From Rhizobium tropici CIAT 899 (lineage in GTDB: Bacteria; Pseudomonadota; Alphaproteobacteria; Rhizobiales; Rhizobiaceae): a stretch of DNA of 64,000 nt. Each line of letters opens with the position of its first letter. Within the stretch, counting starts at the first letter, position 1. A program made the translations under genes and the position numbers. The DNA lies in the NCBI RefSeq assembly GCF_000330885.1, contig NC_020059.1, positions 3,691,501 to 3,755,500 of the forward strand, read 5' to 3'. Under the pieces are notes generated by a model. The model searched no databases, was not told the origin of the DNA, and saw only the letters and a list, made by a program, of their open reading frames with translations. Positions 47,598 to 52,145 of the stretch are shown here, one piece after another.

Positions 47598-47671
47598 TGG
47601 CTGGGGAACCTGGACTCGAACCAAGATTAACGGAGTCAGAGTCCGTCGTTCTACCATTGAACTATTCCCCA
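47598..47671 (-). tRNA. tRNA-Gln (anticodon CTG)
   Basis: 74 bases including encoded CCA. The acceptor stem TGGGGAA pairs with TTCCCCA, D stem GTTC/GAAC, anticodon stem ACGGA/TCCGT around loop CTCTGAC (anticodon CTG), T stem CTTGG/CCAGG with TTCGAGT loop. A U at position 1 is usual for tRNA-Gln. Its 3' end faces the O-antigen locus. Confidence 0.95.
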
Positions 47672-47832: not shown

Positions 47833-48468
47833 TCACCAGCGCAACAGGCGCCTGCCGAGGACATATCCGACCGCCGTCACCATGGCGATCGCGATCGGGT
47901 ACCAGAGCAGGACGAAAAGTGGGCTGTCGTCCGTGCAGTTGGAGGCGTAGAAGGTCGCCGCGATGCCGCTGGCGGCAAGGCCGGCGACGGCGCCGGCAAT
48001 ACCCGGCTTTTCCGGCGCGCCCTGGCGCAGGGCAAACAGGAAGCAGGCAAGCGGCCCGATCGACAGCAGCGGGATTAGTGTCAGGCAGAAGCGGGCATTG
48101 TGCCCGATCATCCGCGCACTCCAGCTGTAGGCCGGCATGACGGCCATTTCGACAGCGGCGGCGGCAAGCAGCAGGACGGGCGCCAAAAGCAGCGTCCAGC
48201 CCCACAGGCGTAGTGAAACGCCCGGCCGCCCGATGCGGAAGACGACGGCGCAGGCTGTTGTGGCAAGTGCGATCGTCACGACGAACTTGAACAGGAAGCG
48301 AACGGTCTCCATCGCTGTATCGATATCGGCACGAAAGCCGATCGCGGCGAAGAAAAGCCCGCCGCTGATGAGGATGCCCGCGATAACCGCCATGGTCAGG
48401 GCCTTGCCGATCCGCGTGCGGACCGGCGCGTCCTGCGCCAAAAGATTGATGAGGTCATCGGTTTTCAC
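47833..48468 (-). CDS. NrsF-like (DUF1109) membrane anti-sigma factor
   Basis: 211 residues with six predicted helices, the DUF1109 architecture of NrsF, which in Caulobacter holds the ECF factor SigF at the membrane. Short cytoplasmic N-terminus (KTDDLINLLAQDAPVR), then helices; two cysteines (one in TACAVVF, one in SNCTDDSPL) may sense stress or metal. GTG 48468 has GGAG upstream and overlaps the sigma gene by 14 bases, so the two are co-translated. Confidence 0.87.
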   Translation of the reverse strand: MKTDDLINLLAQDAPVRTRIGKALTMAVIAGILISGGLFFAAIGFRADIDTAMETVRFLFKFVVTIALATTACAVVFRIGRPGVSLRLWGWTLLLAPVLLLAAAAVEMAVMPAYSWSARMIGHNARFCLTLIPLLSIGPLACFLFALRQGAPEKPGIAGAVAGLAASGIAATFYASNCTDDSPLFVLLWYPIAIAMVTAVGYVLGRRLLRW

Positions 48469-49021
48469 TGGTCTCACTCCGATACAAAGCCGCAAGCGCC
48501 TTCAACGCGCGGTGCAGCGCCACGCGCACCGCCCCTTCCGTCATCTTCAGCCGGCCCGCCGTTTCCCGCACGCTGCTTCCCTCGACGGAAATCGAGCGCA
48601 CGATCGTCTTCTGCGGGTCTTTCAGCAGCTCCAGCATACGATCGACATCGAACCGGTCCAAGGCGTCGGTATGCACTTCCGCCTCCAGGAAATCGATCAC
48701 GTCGTCGATCGGTACGCTCGTATGCCGCCCGCGCCGCCTCAGGCTGTCGATCAGCTTGTTGCGCACGATCGTCGACAGCCAAGGTCCGATCGGGCGGGAT
48801 GAATCCCATGTGCCGCGCTTCAGATGGATGGCCAGCAGCACTTCCTGCACCACATCCTCGGCCTCGCTTACCGGCGCGCCTAGCTGGTCGCAGCGCCGGC
48901 GCGCCATGGCGCGCAGGTGCGGCGTCACAGCGGTGAGGAAACGGTGATAGGCCTGCGCATCGCCGCTGATGGCGGCGCGCATCCAGACTGCCCATTCCTC
49001 TTCGCGCGCCGAATGATTCAT
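48455..49021 (-). CDS. sigF: ECF sigma factor, SigF-like
   Basis: 188-residue extracytoplasmic-function sigma factor. Region 2: EDVVQEVLLAIH and PWLSTIVRNKLIDSLRRRG; region 4 helix-turn-helix: VRETAGRLKMTEGAVRVALHRALKAL. It is coupled to a membrane anti-sigma gene and divergent from the bufferin operon, as in Caulobacter where SigF drives buf-type genes. A promoter identical in key bases to that of the buf operon precedes its start, so it probably drives itself. ATG 49021 has GGAG seven bases upstream. Confidence 0.9.
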   Translation of the reverse strand: MNHSAREEEWAVWMRAAISGDAQAYHRFLTAVTPHLRAMARRRCDQLGAPVSEAEDVVQEVLLAIHLKRGTWDSSRPIGPWLSTIVRNKLIDSLRRRGRHTSVPIDDVIDFLEAEVHTDALDRFDVDRMLELLKDPQKTIVRSISVEGSSVRETAGRLKMTEGAVRVALHRALKALAALYRSETSENR

Positions 49022-49032
49022 CCGACATCTCC

Positions 49033-49060
49033 TCTACGCGGGACCGCAAGCTTTCGTTAC
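49033..49060 (-). promoter_or_regulatory. Autoregulatory ECF (SigF-type) promoter of the sigma gene
   Basis: GTAACG (49060-49055), 16 bases, CGTAGA (49038-49033) on the minus strand, directly before the sigma gene. The same -35/-10 pair with identical spacing lies before bufA1. Confidence 0.75.
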
Positions 49061-49236
49061 CGGCAACGGCAACTATTTTTCAAGCCTTTTCGTCTCCGCG
49101 ACAGATTCTCCGGCGGATGCGTCCGCTACCCATGCACATTCCAGCCTCATCGCCACACCTGCTCGGCTATTGCCCGCCGCAGCAGATAGCCGGCACAGTA
49201 TAAATGACGCCATCTCGAAAAAATTCCGATGCGGCT

Positions 49237-49264
49237 GTAACATCCGATCGAGACGCTCCGTAGA
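49237..49264 (+). promoter_or_regulatory. ECF (SigF-type) promoter of the bufferin operon
   Basis: GTAACA (49237-49242), 16 bases, CGTAGA (49259-49264). Transcription would start near 49271, giving a leader of about 40 bases that contains the GGAG of bufA1. Confidence 0.78.
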
Positions 49265-49312
49265 CCTCGATGCAAGCCAATGACGGCTCGCATCCAACTA
49301 GGAGACAGATCC

Positions 49313-49579
49313 ATGAAGAACAGCATCCTCACCCTGGCCATTGCTGGCTCGATCGCCTCGGCACTTGCATCCGTCGCCGTCCCTGCTTCGGCCGCCGATA
49401 CCAAGGAAAAATGCTATGGCGTCGCCCTCAAGGGCCAGAACGATTGCGCCGCCGGCAAGCATGATTGCGCCGGCAAGTCGACCATGAGCTACGACAAGAT
49501 GTCCTTCAAGCTCGTTCCCACGGGTAGCTGCACCTCGATGAAGACCCCGAAGGGCCACGGCTCGCTGACCCCGGCCTGA
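49313..49579 (+). CDS. bufA1: Bufferin-type precursor peptide (DUF2282), copy 1
   Basis: 88-residue RiPP precursor. Signal peptide of about 27 residues ending ASAA, then a core with four cysteines (KCYG, NDCAAG, HDCAGK, GSCTSM) and C-terminal TPKGHGSL. In studied bufferins the MNIO enzyme BufB converts cysteines to thiooxazole rings and the secreted product binds copper in the periplasm. GGAG lies eight bases before ATG 49313. First gene behind the SigF-type promoter. Confidence 0.9.
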   Translation: MKNSILTLAIAGSIASALASVAVPASAADTKEKCYGVALKGQNDCAAGKHDCAGKSTMSYDKMSFKLVPTGSCTSMKTPKGHGSLTPA

Positions 49580-49625
49580 TCCGAAACCGGATTGATCGTC
49601 AATCATCTCTCGTAAGGAGTTTGTC

Positions 49626-49910
49626 ATGAGCAAGATGTCCGCACTCGCCCTGGCCGCCTCGGTCGCAGCCGCAGTGACGCTGATTGCCGGCGCAACGACA
49701 GCATCTGCCGCCGATGCCAAGGAAAAATGCTACGGCGTCGCCCTCAAGGGTCAGAACGATTGCGCCGCCGGCCCCGGCACGACCTGCGCCGGCACGTCAA
49801 AGGTCGACTATCAGCGCAACTCGTGGAAGCTGGTTCCCGCCGGAACCTGCGAGACGATCACGACGCCGAACGGCCACGGCACCCTGATGCAGGGGCCGGC
49901 CCCGGTCTGA
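49626..49910 (+). CDS. bufA2: Bufferin-type precursor peptide (DUF2282), copy 2
   Basis: 94-residue paralogue of bufA1, 46 bases downstream. Own signal peptide (ends ASAA), four cysteines at matching positions (KCYG, NDCAAG, TTCAGT, GTCETI), C-terminal TPNGHGTL plus a short extra tail. The first half of the core is almost identical to copy 1, DNA included, while the second half differs. AGGAG before ATG. Likely a second substrate for the same enzyme. Confidence 0.9.
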
Positions 49911-49929
49911 CAAGACAGCGTAAACACGT

Positions 49930-49959
49930 GGGCGGCGCAGCCTTTCACAGGCGCCGCCC
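49930..49959 (+). other. Intercistronic hairpin between precursor and enzyme genes
   Basis: Perfect 9-bp G+C stem GGGCGGCGC / GCGCCGCCC, loop of 12, no T-run. Position 20 bases past bufA2 and 60 before bufB suggests partial termination or protection of the precursor mRNA so that peptides outnumber enzyme. Confidence 0.6.
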
Positions 49960-50020
49960 CCCTTCCGAACGCAAACCGCTTCGTAACTTTGCTGGAATTG
50001 CCCGAACCCGGAGGCCCGCA

Positions 50021-50875
50021 ATGAAACCGTCAGAACTTCCCCGCCACGCCGGCGTCGGCTTCAAGCCGGAACATTTTGCCGCGATCAATGCGGCTGCGCA
50101 GCCGATCGGCTTCTTCGAAGTCCACGCCGAAAACTATATGGGGGCCGGCGGTCCGCCGCATGCCCAGCTCGGGAGGCTGCGCCAAGACTATGCCTTGTCC
50201 GTCCATGGCGTCGGCCTCTCCATCGGCTCGATGCTACCTTTGGATAGCGATCATCTTGCCCGCTTGAAGATCGTCTGCGATCGCTACGAGCCGGAGAGCT
50301 TTTCGGAGCACCTCGCCTGGTCGACGCACGATACGACCTTTCTCAACGATCTCCTGCCCCTCCCCTATACCGAAGCGACGCTATCGCAGGTCTGCACCCA
50401 TATCGATCAGGTGCAGACAATACTCGGTCGCCAGATGCTGCTCGAGAATCCGGCTACCTACCTGCTCTTCGAGGAAAGCACGATCGAGGAAACGGATTTT
50501 CTCGCCGAAGTCGCCAGACGCACGGGCTGCGGCCTGCTGCTCGACGTCAACAATGTCTTCGTCGCCGCCACCAATCATCACATGGATGCGCGGGCCTATC
50601 TGGAGCGCTTTCCTGTGCAATGGGTGCGCGAGATCCATCTGAGCGGCCATTCGGAGACTATCGACGATTCAGGTGCGCCACTTTTGATCGATAGCCACGA
50701 TACGCCGGTGAAAGATCCTGTCTGGGCGCTCTATGAAGAGCTGATCGGCCGCACCGGGCCGATTGCCAGCCTGGTAGAGTGGGATAACGACGTGCCGGAA
50801 TGGCCGGTTTTGAGGGCCGAGGCCGAAGCGGCCGACACCATCCTGAAGCGCGCTGCCGCACGCCGGGCAGCCTGA
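50021..50875 (+). CDS. bufB: Bufferin maturase, multinuclear non-heme iron oxidase (DUF692/MNIO)
   Basis: 284-residue TIM-barrel enzyme that oxidises precursor cysteines using iron and O2. Family motifs: [69 protein letters not shown] and [11 protein letters not shown]; the His, Glu, Asp and Asn in these form the iron sites. ATG 50021 sits five bases behind GGAGG; the frame is open upstream through bufA2, but that part is out of frame with it. Eleven bases before bufC. Confidence 0.93.
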
Positions 50876-50885
50876 GGAGGGTTGG

Positions 50886-51641
50886 ATGTCTTTTTCCACG
50901 CAAAGCGAATTCGCCGCAGCGCTCATCGATCCCGCTCTGGCGGTGCCCGATGGACTGACGGCCTGGAACGGCTCACGGCCCGCACGGCGTTTCGGCGTCT
51001 ATCGCAACAACGTCGCCATCGGCCTGATCGGTGCGCTCTCCTCGCGTTTTCCGGCAGCGGAAAGGATCGTCGGTGAGGAATTCTTCGCCGCCACGGCGCA
51101 TGAGTTCATCCGCCTGCATCCGCCGCGATCGCCGCTGCTGCTTGCCTATGGCGATGATTTCCCCGATTTCATTGAAAGTTTCGAACCGACACGGGAAATC
51201 CCCTATCTGGCCGATGTCATGCGGCTGGAGGCGCTGCGAGGGCGGGCGTATCACGCGGTGGATGCCGTGCCGCTCGATGCAGCGCTCGTGGCGACCATCG
51301 AGCCGGCAGGCCTGGCGGAGCTGACTTTCGTGCCGCACCCCTCTGCCTCGATCGCACGTTCCACCTATCCGGCCGTCACCATATGGGCGATGAACACCGG
51401 CGAAATCGAGCTTGCGGATATCGACGATTGGACGGGCGAGGATGCTCTCGTCATCCGCCCGCAGATGATTGTCGAGGTGCATCGCTTGCCGCCGGGTGGC
51501 GCAACCTTTCTGGAAGAGCTGTTTTCGGGCGCCGCCCTTGGCGAGGCCTATGAGAGGGCTCTCGCCGAAGCCGCCAATTTCGATCTTTCCGCCAACCTCG
51601 CCGGTGCGTTCACGGCAGGCGCTTTCATGGCCATTCGCTGA
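50886..51641 (+). CDS. bufC: Bufferin maturation partner (DUF2063)
   Basis: 251 residues of the DUF2063 family, often labelled putative DNA-binding but found with MNIO enzymes, where it is thought to deliver the precursor to the enzyme. Seen: N-terminal RRFGVYRNNVAIGLIGAL and FPAAERIVGEEFF, then PYLADVMRLEALRGRAYHA, conserved for the family. Ribosome site GGAGG before ATG 50886. Cytoplasmic. Confidence 0.9.
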   Translation: MSFSTQSEFAAALIDPALAVPDGLTAWNGSRPARRFGVYRNNVAIGLIGALSSRFPAAERIVGEEFFAATAHEFIRLHPPRSPLLLAYGDDFPDFIESFEPTREIPYLADVMRLEALRGRAYHAVDAVPLDAALVATIEPAGLAELTFVPHPSASIARSTYPAVTIWAMNTGEIELADIDDWTGEDALVIRPQMIVEVHRLPPGGATFLEELFSGAALGEAYERALAEAANFDLSANLAGAFTAGAFMAIR

Positions 51642-51659
51642 ACGCCAAGAGGAATGAAG

Positions 51660-52145
51660 ATGCAGAACCAGATGATGACGGCCGCCCCGGACGAACGCGA
51701 AACCGTGCCCCGAAGGCTCTGCGGCGCCCTGAAACTTCTCGACCGCATCCCGCACGATCTGATCGCGCTCGTTGCGAGGCTGTCGATCGCCGCGGTCTTC
51801 TGGCAATCCGGCCAGACGAAGGTCGATGGCTGGCATGTGACCGACAATGCCGTCTATCTCTTTCAGACGGAATACAAGCTGCCGCTGGTCGATCCCTGGA
51901 TCGCTGCGCATATTGCCGCCTTCAGCGAGCATTTCTTCCCGTTCCTGCTCGTCATCGGTTTCGCAAGCCGGCTCTCGGCGCTGGCGCTGCTCGGCATGAC
52001 CCTGGTCATCGAGATTTTCGTCTATCCCGATGCCTGGCCAACGCATGGCACATGGGCAACCTGTTTTCTGGTAATCATCGCGGGCGGGCCGGGGCGCATC
52101 GCGCTCGACCATCTGATTGCCAGACGGTTCAGCCGCTCGGCCTGA
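51660..52145 (+). CDS. DoxX-family membrane protein of the bufferin operon
   Basis: 161 residues with four helices and the DoxX hallmark ARLSIAAVFWQSGQTKVDGW. DoxX-like genes regularly close buf operons; the function is unknown and may concern redox or export. ATG 51660 is preferred to ATG 51654, because AGAGGA ends just before 51654 and is six bases from 51660. Last gene before a hairpin. Confidence 0.9.
   Translation: MQNQMMTAAPDERETVPRRLCGALKLLDRIPHDLIALVARLSIAAVFWQSGQTKVDGWHVTDNAVYLFQTEYKLPLVDPWIAAHIAAFSEHFFPFLLVIGFASRLSALALLGMTLVIEIFVYPDAWPTHGTWATCFLVIIAGGPGRIALDHLIARRFSRSA

Follow-up and report, generated by a model that had tools for sequence, protein, structure and literature searches.

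Known systems and the Rhizobium tropici locus

Buf1-type bufferins are reported to chelate copper in the periplasm; their central cysteines are converted to thiooxazoles, and Cys1 and Cys4 are joined by a disulfide (Antoine et al., 2025). Sigma/NrsF genes and tandem precursors are also on record for Buf1 clusters in that study. In the present study, we analyzed a bufferin (buf) locus in a 64,000-nucleotide (nt) stretch of Rhizobium tropici CIAT 899 (NC_020059.1, assembly GCF_000330885.1, positions 3,691,501 to 3,755,500 of the forward strand), which is hereafter called the window and in which positions are counted. The locus is a Buf1-type cluster of the published kind. Judging from their sequences, its two precursors are two conserved subtypes and not a plain duplicate: one (H) has a histidine and a short loop before Cys3, and the other (T) has a longer loop and no histidine. 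Since the sigma/NrsF pair and tandem precursors had already been reported for Buf1 clusters, the novelty of the locus itself is smaller than implied by an earlier reading of its letters alone (the sequence-only reading). The new points are the H and T subtypes as an ordered conserved pair, the divergent CGTA-type promoter motifs, and a motif link to msrPQ and msrA. Overall, we consider it likely that this Buf1 locus is under a SigF/NrsF switch of group ECF16 (extracytoplasmic function [ECF] sigma factors), produces two precursors, and has an msr regulon.

The Caulobacter Buf1/SigF-NrsF locus (CC3252-CC3257) contains, as here, NrsF, SigF, DUF2282, DUF692, a further protein, and DoxX. Copper was reported to induce its SigF regulon (DUF2282, DUF692, DoxX, and msrPQ-like genes), and a sigF mutant was copper-sensitive. 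GTAAC-type promoters and msrPQ-like genes in the regulon are further likenesses. In contrast, Caulobacter has a second DUF692 cluster elsewhere (CCNA_02999-03001) and a single DUF2282 gene among the listed copper-induced genes, whereas R. tropici has two DUF2282 subtypes in tandem and the -10 element CGTA instead of CGAA. In Sinorhizobium meliloti, the rpoE7-ecfR7 and SMb20530-SMb20527 genes form a similar arrangement, with a divergent ECF16 pair and a four-gene target operon that includes DUF692 and DUF2063 genes. The promoters of that system are GTAAC-N17-CGAA (operon) and GTAAC-N16-CGAA (rpoE7). However, only one gene (SMb20530) is listed ahead of the DUF692 gene, and bufferins are unmentioned in the accessible part of that report. 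Bradyrhizobium EcfF-OsrA and Brucella BcrS-AbcS are also ECF16 systems, in which a sigma factor is paired with a six-helix DUF1109 anti-sigma factor with two conserved cysteines, and in which Msr genes are targets; Bradyrhizobium promoters read GTAAC...CG(t/a). Unlike here, the accessible accounts of these systems name no bufferin genes, and the inducers are H2O2 and HOCl.

In the sections consulted, Antoine et al. describe neither a His/short-loop subtype nor a fixed pairing for tandem Buf1 clusters, and the terms "His residue" and "spacing" are absent from their main text. We found no description of H/T pairing in the bufferin literature searched, which included those sections and parts of PMC13097082; supplements and the founding paper (PNAS 2024) were outside this scope.

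The seven genes span 47833..52145, with the same outer coordinates as in the sequence-only reading. The features of the locus are as follows.

47833..48468, minus strand: nrsF-like anti-sigma factor (DUF1109), 211 aa; PF06532, 184.7 bits
48455..49021, minus strand: ECF16-type (SigF-like) sigma factor, 188 aa; Pfam sigma-70 r2 and r4_2; NCBIfam NF009165, 287.2 bits (cut-off 198)
49035..49060, minus strand: predicted ECF16-like promoter of sigF-nrsF, GTAAC-N17-CGTA; motif match
49237..49262, plus strand: predicted ECF16-like promoter of the buf operon, GTAAC-N17-CGTA; motif match
49313..49579, plus strand: bufA-a, H-subtype precursor (CAAGKHDC), 88 aa; PF10048 (DUF2282), 78.6 bits
49626..49910, plus strand: bufA-b, T-subtype precursor (CAAGPGTTC), 94 aa; PF10048, 92.6 bits
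50021..50875, plus strand: bufB, bufferin maturase of the multinuclear non-heme iron-dependent oxidative (MNIO) family, formerly DUF692, 284 aa; NF050167, 383.6 bits (cut-off 310); PF05114 (MbnB_TglH_ChrH), 349.3 bits
50886..51641, plus strand: bufC, DUF2063 partner, 251 aa; PF09836, 93.2 bits
51654..52145, plus strand: bufD, DoxX-family membrane protein, 163 aa; PF07681, 61.9 bits

The gene content, order, and coordinates given in the sequence-only reading were borne out, and all of the listed Pfam matches (NrsF, sigma domains, both DUF2282, MNIO, DUF2063, and DoxX) exceed their curated cut-offs. Its assignment to the bufferin family and its parallel with Caulobacter also hold, as indicated by the NF050167 score and the published Caulobacter locus with the same genes. 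As in Buf1 clusters, DUF2282 precursors with four cysteines stand next to an MNIO BufB with DUF2063 and DoxX partners. The precursors do not belong to BufA2 (Buf2, 6 or 12 cysteines); they scored 26.6 and 22.9 bits against NF050166 (cut-off 60) and have four cysteines each. The signal peptides proposed previously are consistent with a hydrophobic N terminus closing with an AxA-type site in both precursors, judged by eye and not with a predictor. BufB aligned to 3bww and MbnB chains, with His/Glu/Asp motifs in common in our reading of the alignment. The genome search returned a single PF05114 gene, bufB, and two DUF2282 genes, both in the buf locus. The start of bufA-a was selected by a ribosome-binding-like stretch; the list of open reading frames (ORFs) has a longer frame from 49280. 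The sigma gene and nrsF overlap by 14 bases, and the order of nrsF and sigma (both leftward), one or two bufA, bufB, bufC, and bufD recurs among relatives.

Two precursor subtypes

In bufA-a (H), Cys2 and Cys3 are separated by six residues, with His two residues before Cys3 (CAAGKHDC) and the continuation ...YDK.SFK.... In bufA-b (T), the spacing is seven residues, no His is present (CAAGPGTTC), and the continuation is ...YQ.N.WK.... The two are 59% identical, alike from EKCYG to NDCAAG (the Cys1-Cys2 stretch) and divergent thereafter; Ala follows Cys2 and Cys3 in both. Among 256 distinct precursor cores from all sets, 55 had His with six residues, 45 of which had the SFK-type continuation; the others comprised 177 with Thr and seven residues, 12 with His and eight, 7 with Ser and six, and 5 of other kinds. 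The combination of His at that site with a seven-residue loop occurred in none of the 256 distinct cores. Together with the single PF05114 gene, the two conserved subtypes strengthen the proposal in the sequence-only reading that two distinct peptides are produced by one enzyme.

The ratio of non-synonymous to synonymous substitutions (dN/dS), calculated from 39 of the 41 genus H/T pairs (L140 and L141 were left out), had medians of 0.054 for H (718 comparisons), 0.077 for T (715), and 0.089 for bufB (665). Both precursor copies are under purifying selection. Furthermore, a 17-residue stretch of H was invariant across 39 genus loci.

A tree of 93 representatives, of which 11 were H, placed the H subtype in one group (Shimodaira-Hasegawa-like approximate likelihood ratio test, 93). 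When the Cys2-Cys3 stretch and six long-branch rows were removed (87 rows), a short search split H (2 changes); with the same data, which have few columns, a tree keeping H together was better by 39.84 log units (approximately unbiased test, p = 0.844). A single origin of the H subtype appears plausible from these trees.

Gene conversion between the bufA copies was considered and rejected for the genus. Third-position agreement was 0.721 in the same genome and 0.716 between different genomes (39 distinct loci, L128 left out), and 627 of 2000 permutations reached this value. The first 45 nt from Cys1 are nearly alike between the bufA-a and bufA-b DNA of this locus. In the named set described below (21 loci, without L028 and L051), same-genome agreement was higher (0.737 vs 0.685; 0 of 2000 permutations). 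Kinship together with codon usage can produce this difference, and conversion outside the genus is possible. An mRNA hairpin 3' of bufA-b, which would raise precursor over enzyme, was also rejected: although inspection by eye shows an inverted repeat, the median z was -0.93, and only 8 of 39 loci were under -2 (plain shuffles).

Distribution of the H/T pair

Of the 148 genomes of the genus, 104 had a bufB match with an E-value of 1e-20 or lower. From 129 bufB matches counted, 81 loci (own included) were sampled, comprising all 46 with BufB at least 77% identical and 35 of the 66 at 58-64%; the other 17 matches (16 at 44-48% and one partial) were not sampled. The nearest named relatives of bufB were from Rhizobium lusitanum, multihospitium, tropici, and hainanense (91 to 93%). 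H and T occurred together in 41 of the 46 close loci, with H first in every case, and the sequence-only reading's suggestion to see whether other Rhizobium genomes keep both precursors thus has a positive answer. All 35 loci with BufB at 58-64% had T alone.

The named set consisted of 80 loci of a wider collection, selected by similarity to this bufB, and some contigs were common to this and the genus set. H followed by T was found in 22 loci, from Rhizobium, Allorhizobium, Ciceribacter, Kaistia, Taklimakanibacter, and a Xanthobacteraceae metagenome-assembled genome. One locus (Labrys) had H alone, and one (Methylocapsa) had two precursors, both with the seven-residue loop. A single precursor without the H form was present in 54 loci (T in 52 of these), and two loci were outside the pattern. 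Three loci (L028, L128, and L245) were counted as H and T; one precursor in these has an earlier Cys-x-Gly.

At the order level, 29 loci returned for the best H-precursor matches were read; this choice is biased, excludes the own locus, and shares some contigs with the named set. Ten had H/T pairs (H first in all ten), five H alone, and 14 T alone. H stood alone beside bufB and bufC in L050 (Labrys; the same contig as L242), L238, L241, and L244, and this placement suggests that H is a BufB substrate in its own right.

DUF2282 was present in 102 of 398 genomes of a phylum sample. Thirty returned loci (one of them the own locus) and 38 fetched loci, part of the full match list, were read. The H form with the SFK-type continuation was found in none of the 67 other loci; one further precursor, in L302, was outside the pattern. 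In other classes of the phylum, many precursors have His before Cys3, but with a different continuation and often eight residues. One locus of the same class (L298, genome G522) shows another two-precursor layout: a DoxX gene separates two DUF2282 genes, each encoding the six-residue spacing and His, and a divergent sigma/NrsF pair is also present. Five DUF2282 genes of the genus (G040:C4:395388, G086:C1:4090234, G097:C5:573953, G012:C1:320329, and G055:C15:448707) lie on contigs without a listed bufB match and are possible orphan precursors.

Divergent promoters and the sigma/NrsF pair

GTAAC-N17-CGTA stands before both the sigma gene (49035-49060, minus) and bufA-a (49237-49262, plus). Divergent regions were collected from 92 loci; 77 distinct regions were retained after the removal of identical ones, with near-copies kept. 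The motif occurred on both sides in 58 of the 77 and on at least one side in 74, and shuffled sequences had it on both sides in 3 of 3850. Of the 58 two-sided regions, 46 had CGTA as both -10 elements, 8 had CGAA as both, and 4 had one of each. The -35 element and spacing equal those of the ECF16 consensus GTAAC-N17-CGAA, but the -10 element here is CGTA, within the CG(t/a) on record for Bradyrhizobium; these are promoters predicted by motif match.

An ECF sigma gene is followed here by a DUF1109 NrsF gene encoding two conserved cysteines, as in ECF16 pairs; the ECF16 label was assigned from the NrsF partner and the promoter motif and not from an ECF classifier. C128 and C178 of NrsF were conserved in 117 of 117 aligned locus sequences (duplicates between sets included). 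They lie 50 residues apart, as do C131/C181 in Caulobacter and C129/C179 in OsrA. In the sigma factor, residues 44, 45, and 136 separate the CGTA loci (70) from the CGAA loci (15), a separation confounded by kinship. C44 is the only cysteine of the sigma factor and was present in 70 of 70 sigmas with CGTA promoters and 0 of 15 with CGAA promoters (duplicates included, with the same confounding). A cysteine in the sigma factor itself could matter for redox control.

The genome contains a second sigma/NrsF pair (L327 9256-10441, on G000:C4), with GTAAC-N16-CGAA motifs facing both ways. The two circuits may be insulated from each other by their differing spacing and -10 element. In S. meliloti, the two mapped promoters of RpoE7 themselves have unequal spacing. 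In our reading, the second pair adjoins genes for a cytochrome-b-like protein and a molybdopterin-type oxidoreductase (L327 7396-10441).

Predicted msr regulon

Exact GTAAC-N17-CGTA occurs 11 times in the genome, and the reversed pattern occurs 54 times. The string itself is not enriched; therefore, position is what counts. Four of the 11 sites lie 13 to 50 nt before a gene start, namely those of the sigma gene, bufA-a, an msrP-like gene, and msrA, and the other seven are inside ORFs by a crude check. The site at C1:1541697-1541722 (minus) precedes msrPQ, and that at C1:3227129-3227154 (minus) precedes a secreted-looking msrA; in the crude check, two improbable ORFs also overlap the msrP site. 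The msrP-like gene matches Oxidored_molyb and is followed by what we read as an MsrQ-like membrane protein. The msrA product has a PMSR match and an N-terminal hydrophobic stretch. The CGAA version of the motif has 18 sites in the genome, many within ORFs by this crude check; two (L310 and L321) are followed by long ORFs at distances of 31 and 106 nt.

The 30 best loci were sampled for each of msrP (matched in 59 of 60 genomes) and msrA (55 of 60), and close relatives weigh heavily in these samples. Among genomes with a close bufB, the motif preceded msrP in 13 of 16 and msrA in 11 of 16. The predicted regulon would join bufferins with periplasmic methionine-sulfoxide repair. The sequence-only reading had assigned the locus its own sigma/anti-sigma pair. 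The pair does stand divergently at the locus; however, it probably also serves msrPQ and msrA, because the same motif precedes these genes elsewhere in the genome.

Proposed mechanism and alternative explanations

We propose the following sequence of events. Stress on the periplasmic side would act on NrsF through C178, with C128 needed to hold the sigma factor, and would free the sigma factor, as in Caulobacter NrsF and Bradyrhizobium OsrA. The freed sigma factor is predicted to read GTAAC-N17-CGTA at its own promoter, at the buf operon, and probably at msrPQ and the secreted-looking msrA. BufB and BufC would most likely convert Cys2 and Cys3 of both precursors to thiooxazoles in the cytoplasm before Sec export, and the Cys1-Cys4 disulfide would close, by analogy with Caulobacter Buf1. 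Both products would bind excess periplasmic copper, and MsrPQ and MsrA would mend oxidized methionines. Induction by copper and modification of either peptide are expected here from the parallel with described systems. If both peptides are modified, this BufB probably performs the reaction because the search detected a single MNIO gene in the genome. We infer that the single BufB-BufC pair modifies both subtypes and that H gives a different copper site, whose geometry or copper-binding strength we expect to be somewhat different. More specifically, H may be a His-assisted short-loop and T a His-free long-loop thiooxazole site, and thus functionally different copper ligands from one enzyme and one message. 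The ordered pair may have been kept in Hyphomicrobiales because the two cover different copper states or concentrations or act as a hetero-pair. We advance this last proposal tentatively, as possible but short of probable.

Several observations weigh against the proposed copper-responsive switch with two modified precursors and an msr regulon. The NCBIfam equivalogs HvfC (41.1 of 142 bits), HvfX (46.4 of 80), and the narrower NrsF NF042994 (102.5 of 300) were below their cut-offs. T was alone in five of the 46 close loci; therefore, the H subtype is dispensable. Before msrP, the motif was absent in 3 of 16 genomes with a close bufB, and it did occur in 6 of the 10 genomes that have only a different bufB and in 1 of the 4 that lack bufB. 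Similarly, the msrA motif was absent in 5 of 16 and present in 5 of 8 with another bufB only and in 0 of 5 without bufB (one locus was not oriented). The link between bufB and the msr motif is not exclusive because the motif occurs without a close bufB and is missing in some genomes with it. Given the second sigma/NrsF pair, either of the two sigma factors may read the msr promoters. H2O2, CdCl2, and K2CrO4 each elicited no response from the S. meliloti RpoE7 counterpart, and copper is not among the agents named in the accessible part of that report. Moreover, the Brucella and Bradyrhizobium ECF16 systems, which have Msr genes under their control, react to HOCl and H2O2. Together with the promoter motif shared by buf, msrPQ, and msrA, these reactions favor a locus that responds primarily to oxidants (hypochlorite, H2O2, and singlet oxygen) or thiol stress and secondarily to copper, with bufferins mainly as thiol or methionine guards alongside MsrPQ and MsrA. 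We regard this explanation as rather unlikely, although an oxidant signal in place of copper is a serious contender. The Caulobacter regulon has msrPQ-like genes and yet answers Cu, Cr, and Cd, with a Cr/Cd response reported as independent of oxidative stress, and the lack of induction by H2O2 in S. meliloti speaks against an oxidant-first response as well.

The two precursors permit further explanations. T alone may be a true bufferin; H would then be unmodified, or modified at one cysteine only, and might serve, for instance, as a decoy or a His/Cys peptide for metals or thiols. Antoine et al. raise such an alternative where a genome encodes multiple precursors and a single MNIO. H and T are sharply dissimilar in the residues ahead of Cys3, and residues flanking Cys altered what the related enzyme FonBC processed in a study of captophorin (PMC13097082). 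However, the block in FonBC came from a charged residue after Cys, whereas both subtypes have Ala at these positions, and DUF2282 enzymes show little conservation at the site reading the flanking residues (PMC13097082). H is also the sole precursor beside bufB in the loci listed above, both subtypes retain the four cysteines and EKCYG...NDCAAG, and dN/dS is lower in H than in T. We consider a T-only bufferin unlikely. The remaining explanation, a plain duplication for gene dosage in which both copies give the same product and the differences are drift, is compatible with the 59% identity, the same cysteines, and the five close relatives that manage with one precursor. It appears improbable, since several families share the same ordered pair, in which the short loop and His go together throughout, H and T are each under purifying selection, and paralogs in the same genome are no more alike than those in different genomes of the genus, with no homogenization seen.

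The locus provides a clean test case: one MNIO was found, the precursors are in one operon, are alike up to Cys2, differ in a defined manner around Cys3, and stand in the same order in dozens of genomes. It is well suited to asking if a single enzyme is able to equip two unlike peptides for metal binding. Should both be modified and differ in how they bind copper, a neighboring His and the length of the loop would be natural means of tuning thiooxazole copper sites.

Genomic neighborhood

Among 28 named loci, 11 (the R. lusitanum/tropici group) retain PhyH and/or DUF1003 as neighbors. In the other 17, none of five tested neighbors was found within at most 6 kb on each side. The locus, in many of these with its pair, survives relocation, as indicated by these 17 loci. 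A tRNA-Gln (CTG) gene lies at 47598-47671 (minus), approximately 160 bases off the nrsF end of the locus. Since more distant relatives carry the locus elsewhere, a tRNA-linked insertion is possible.

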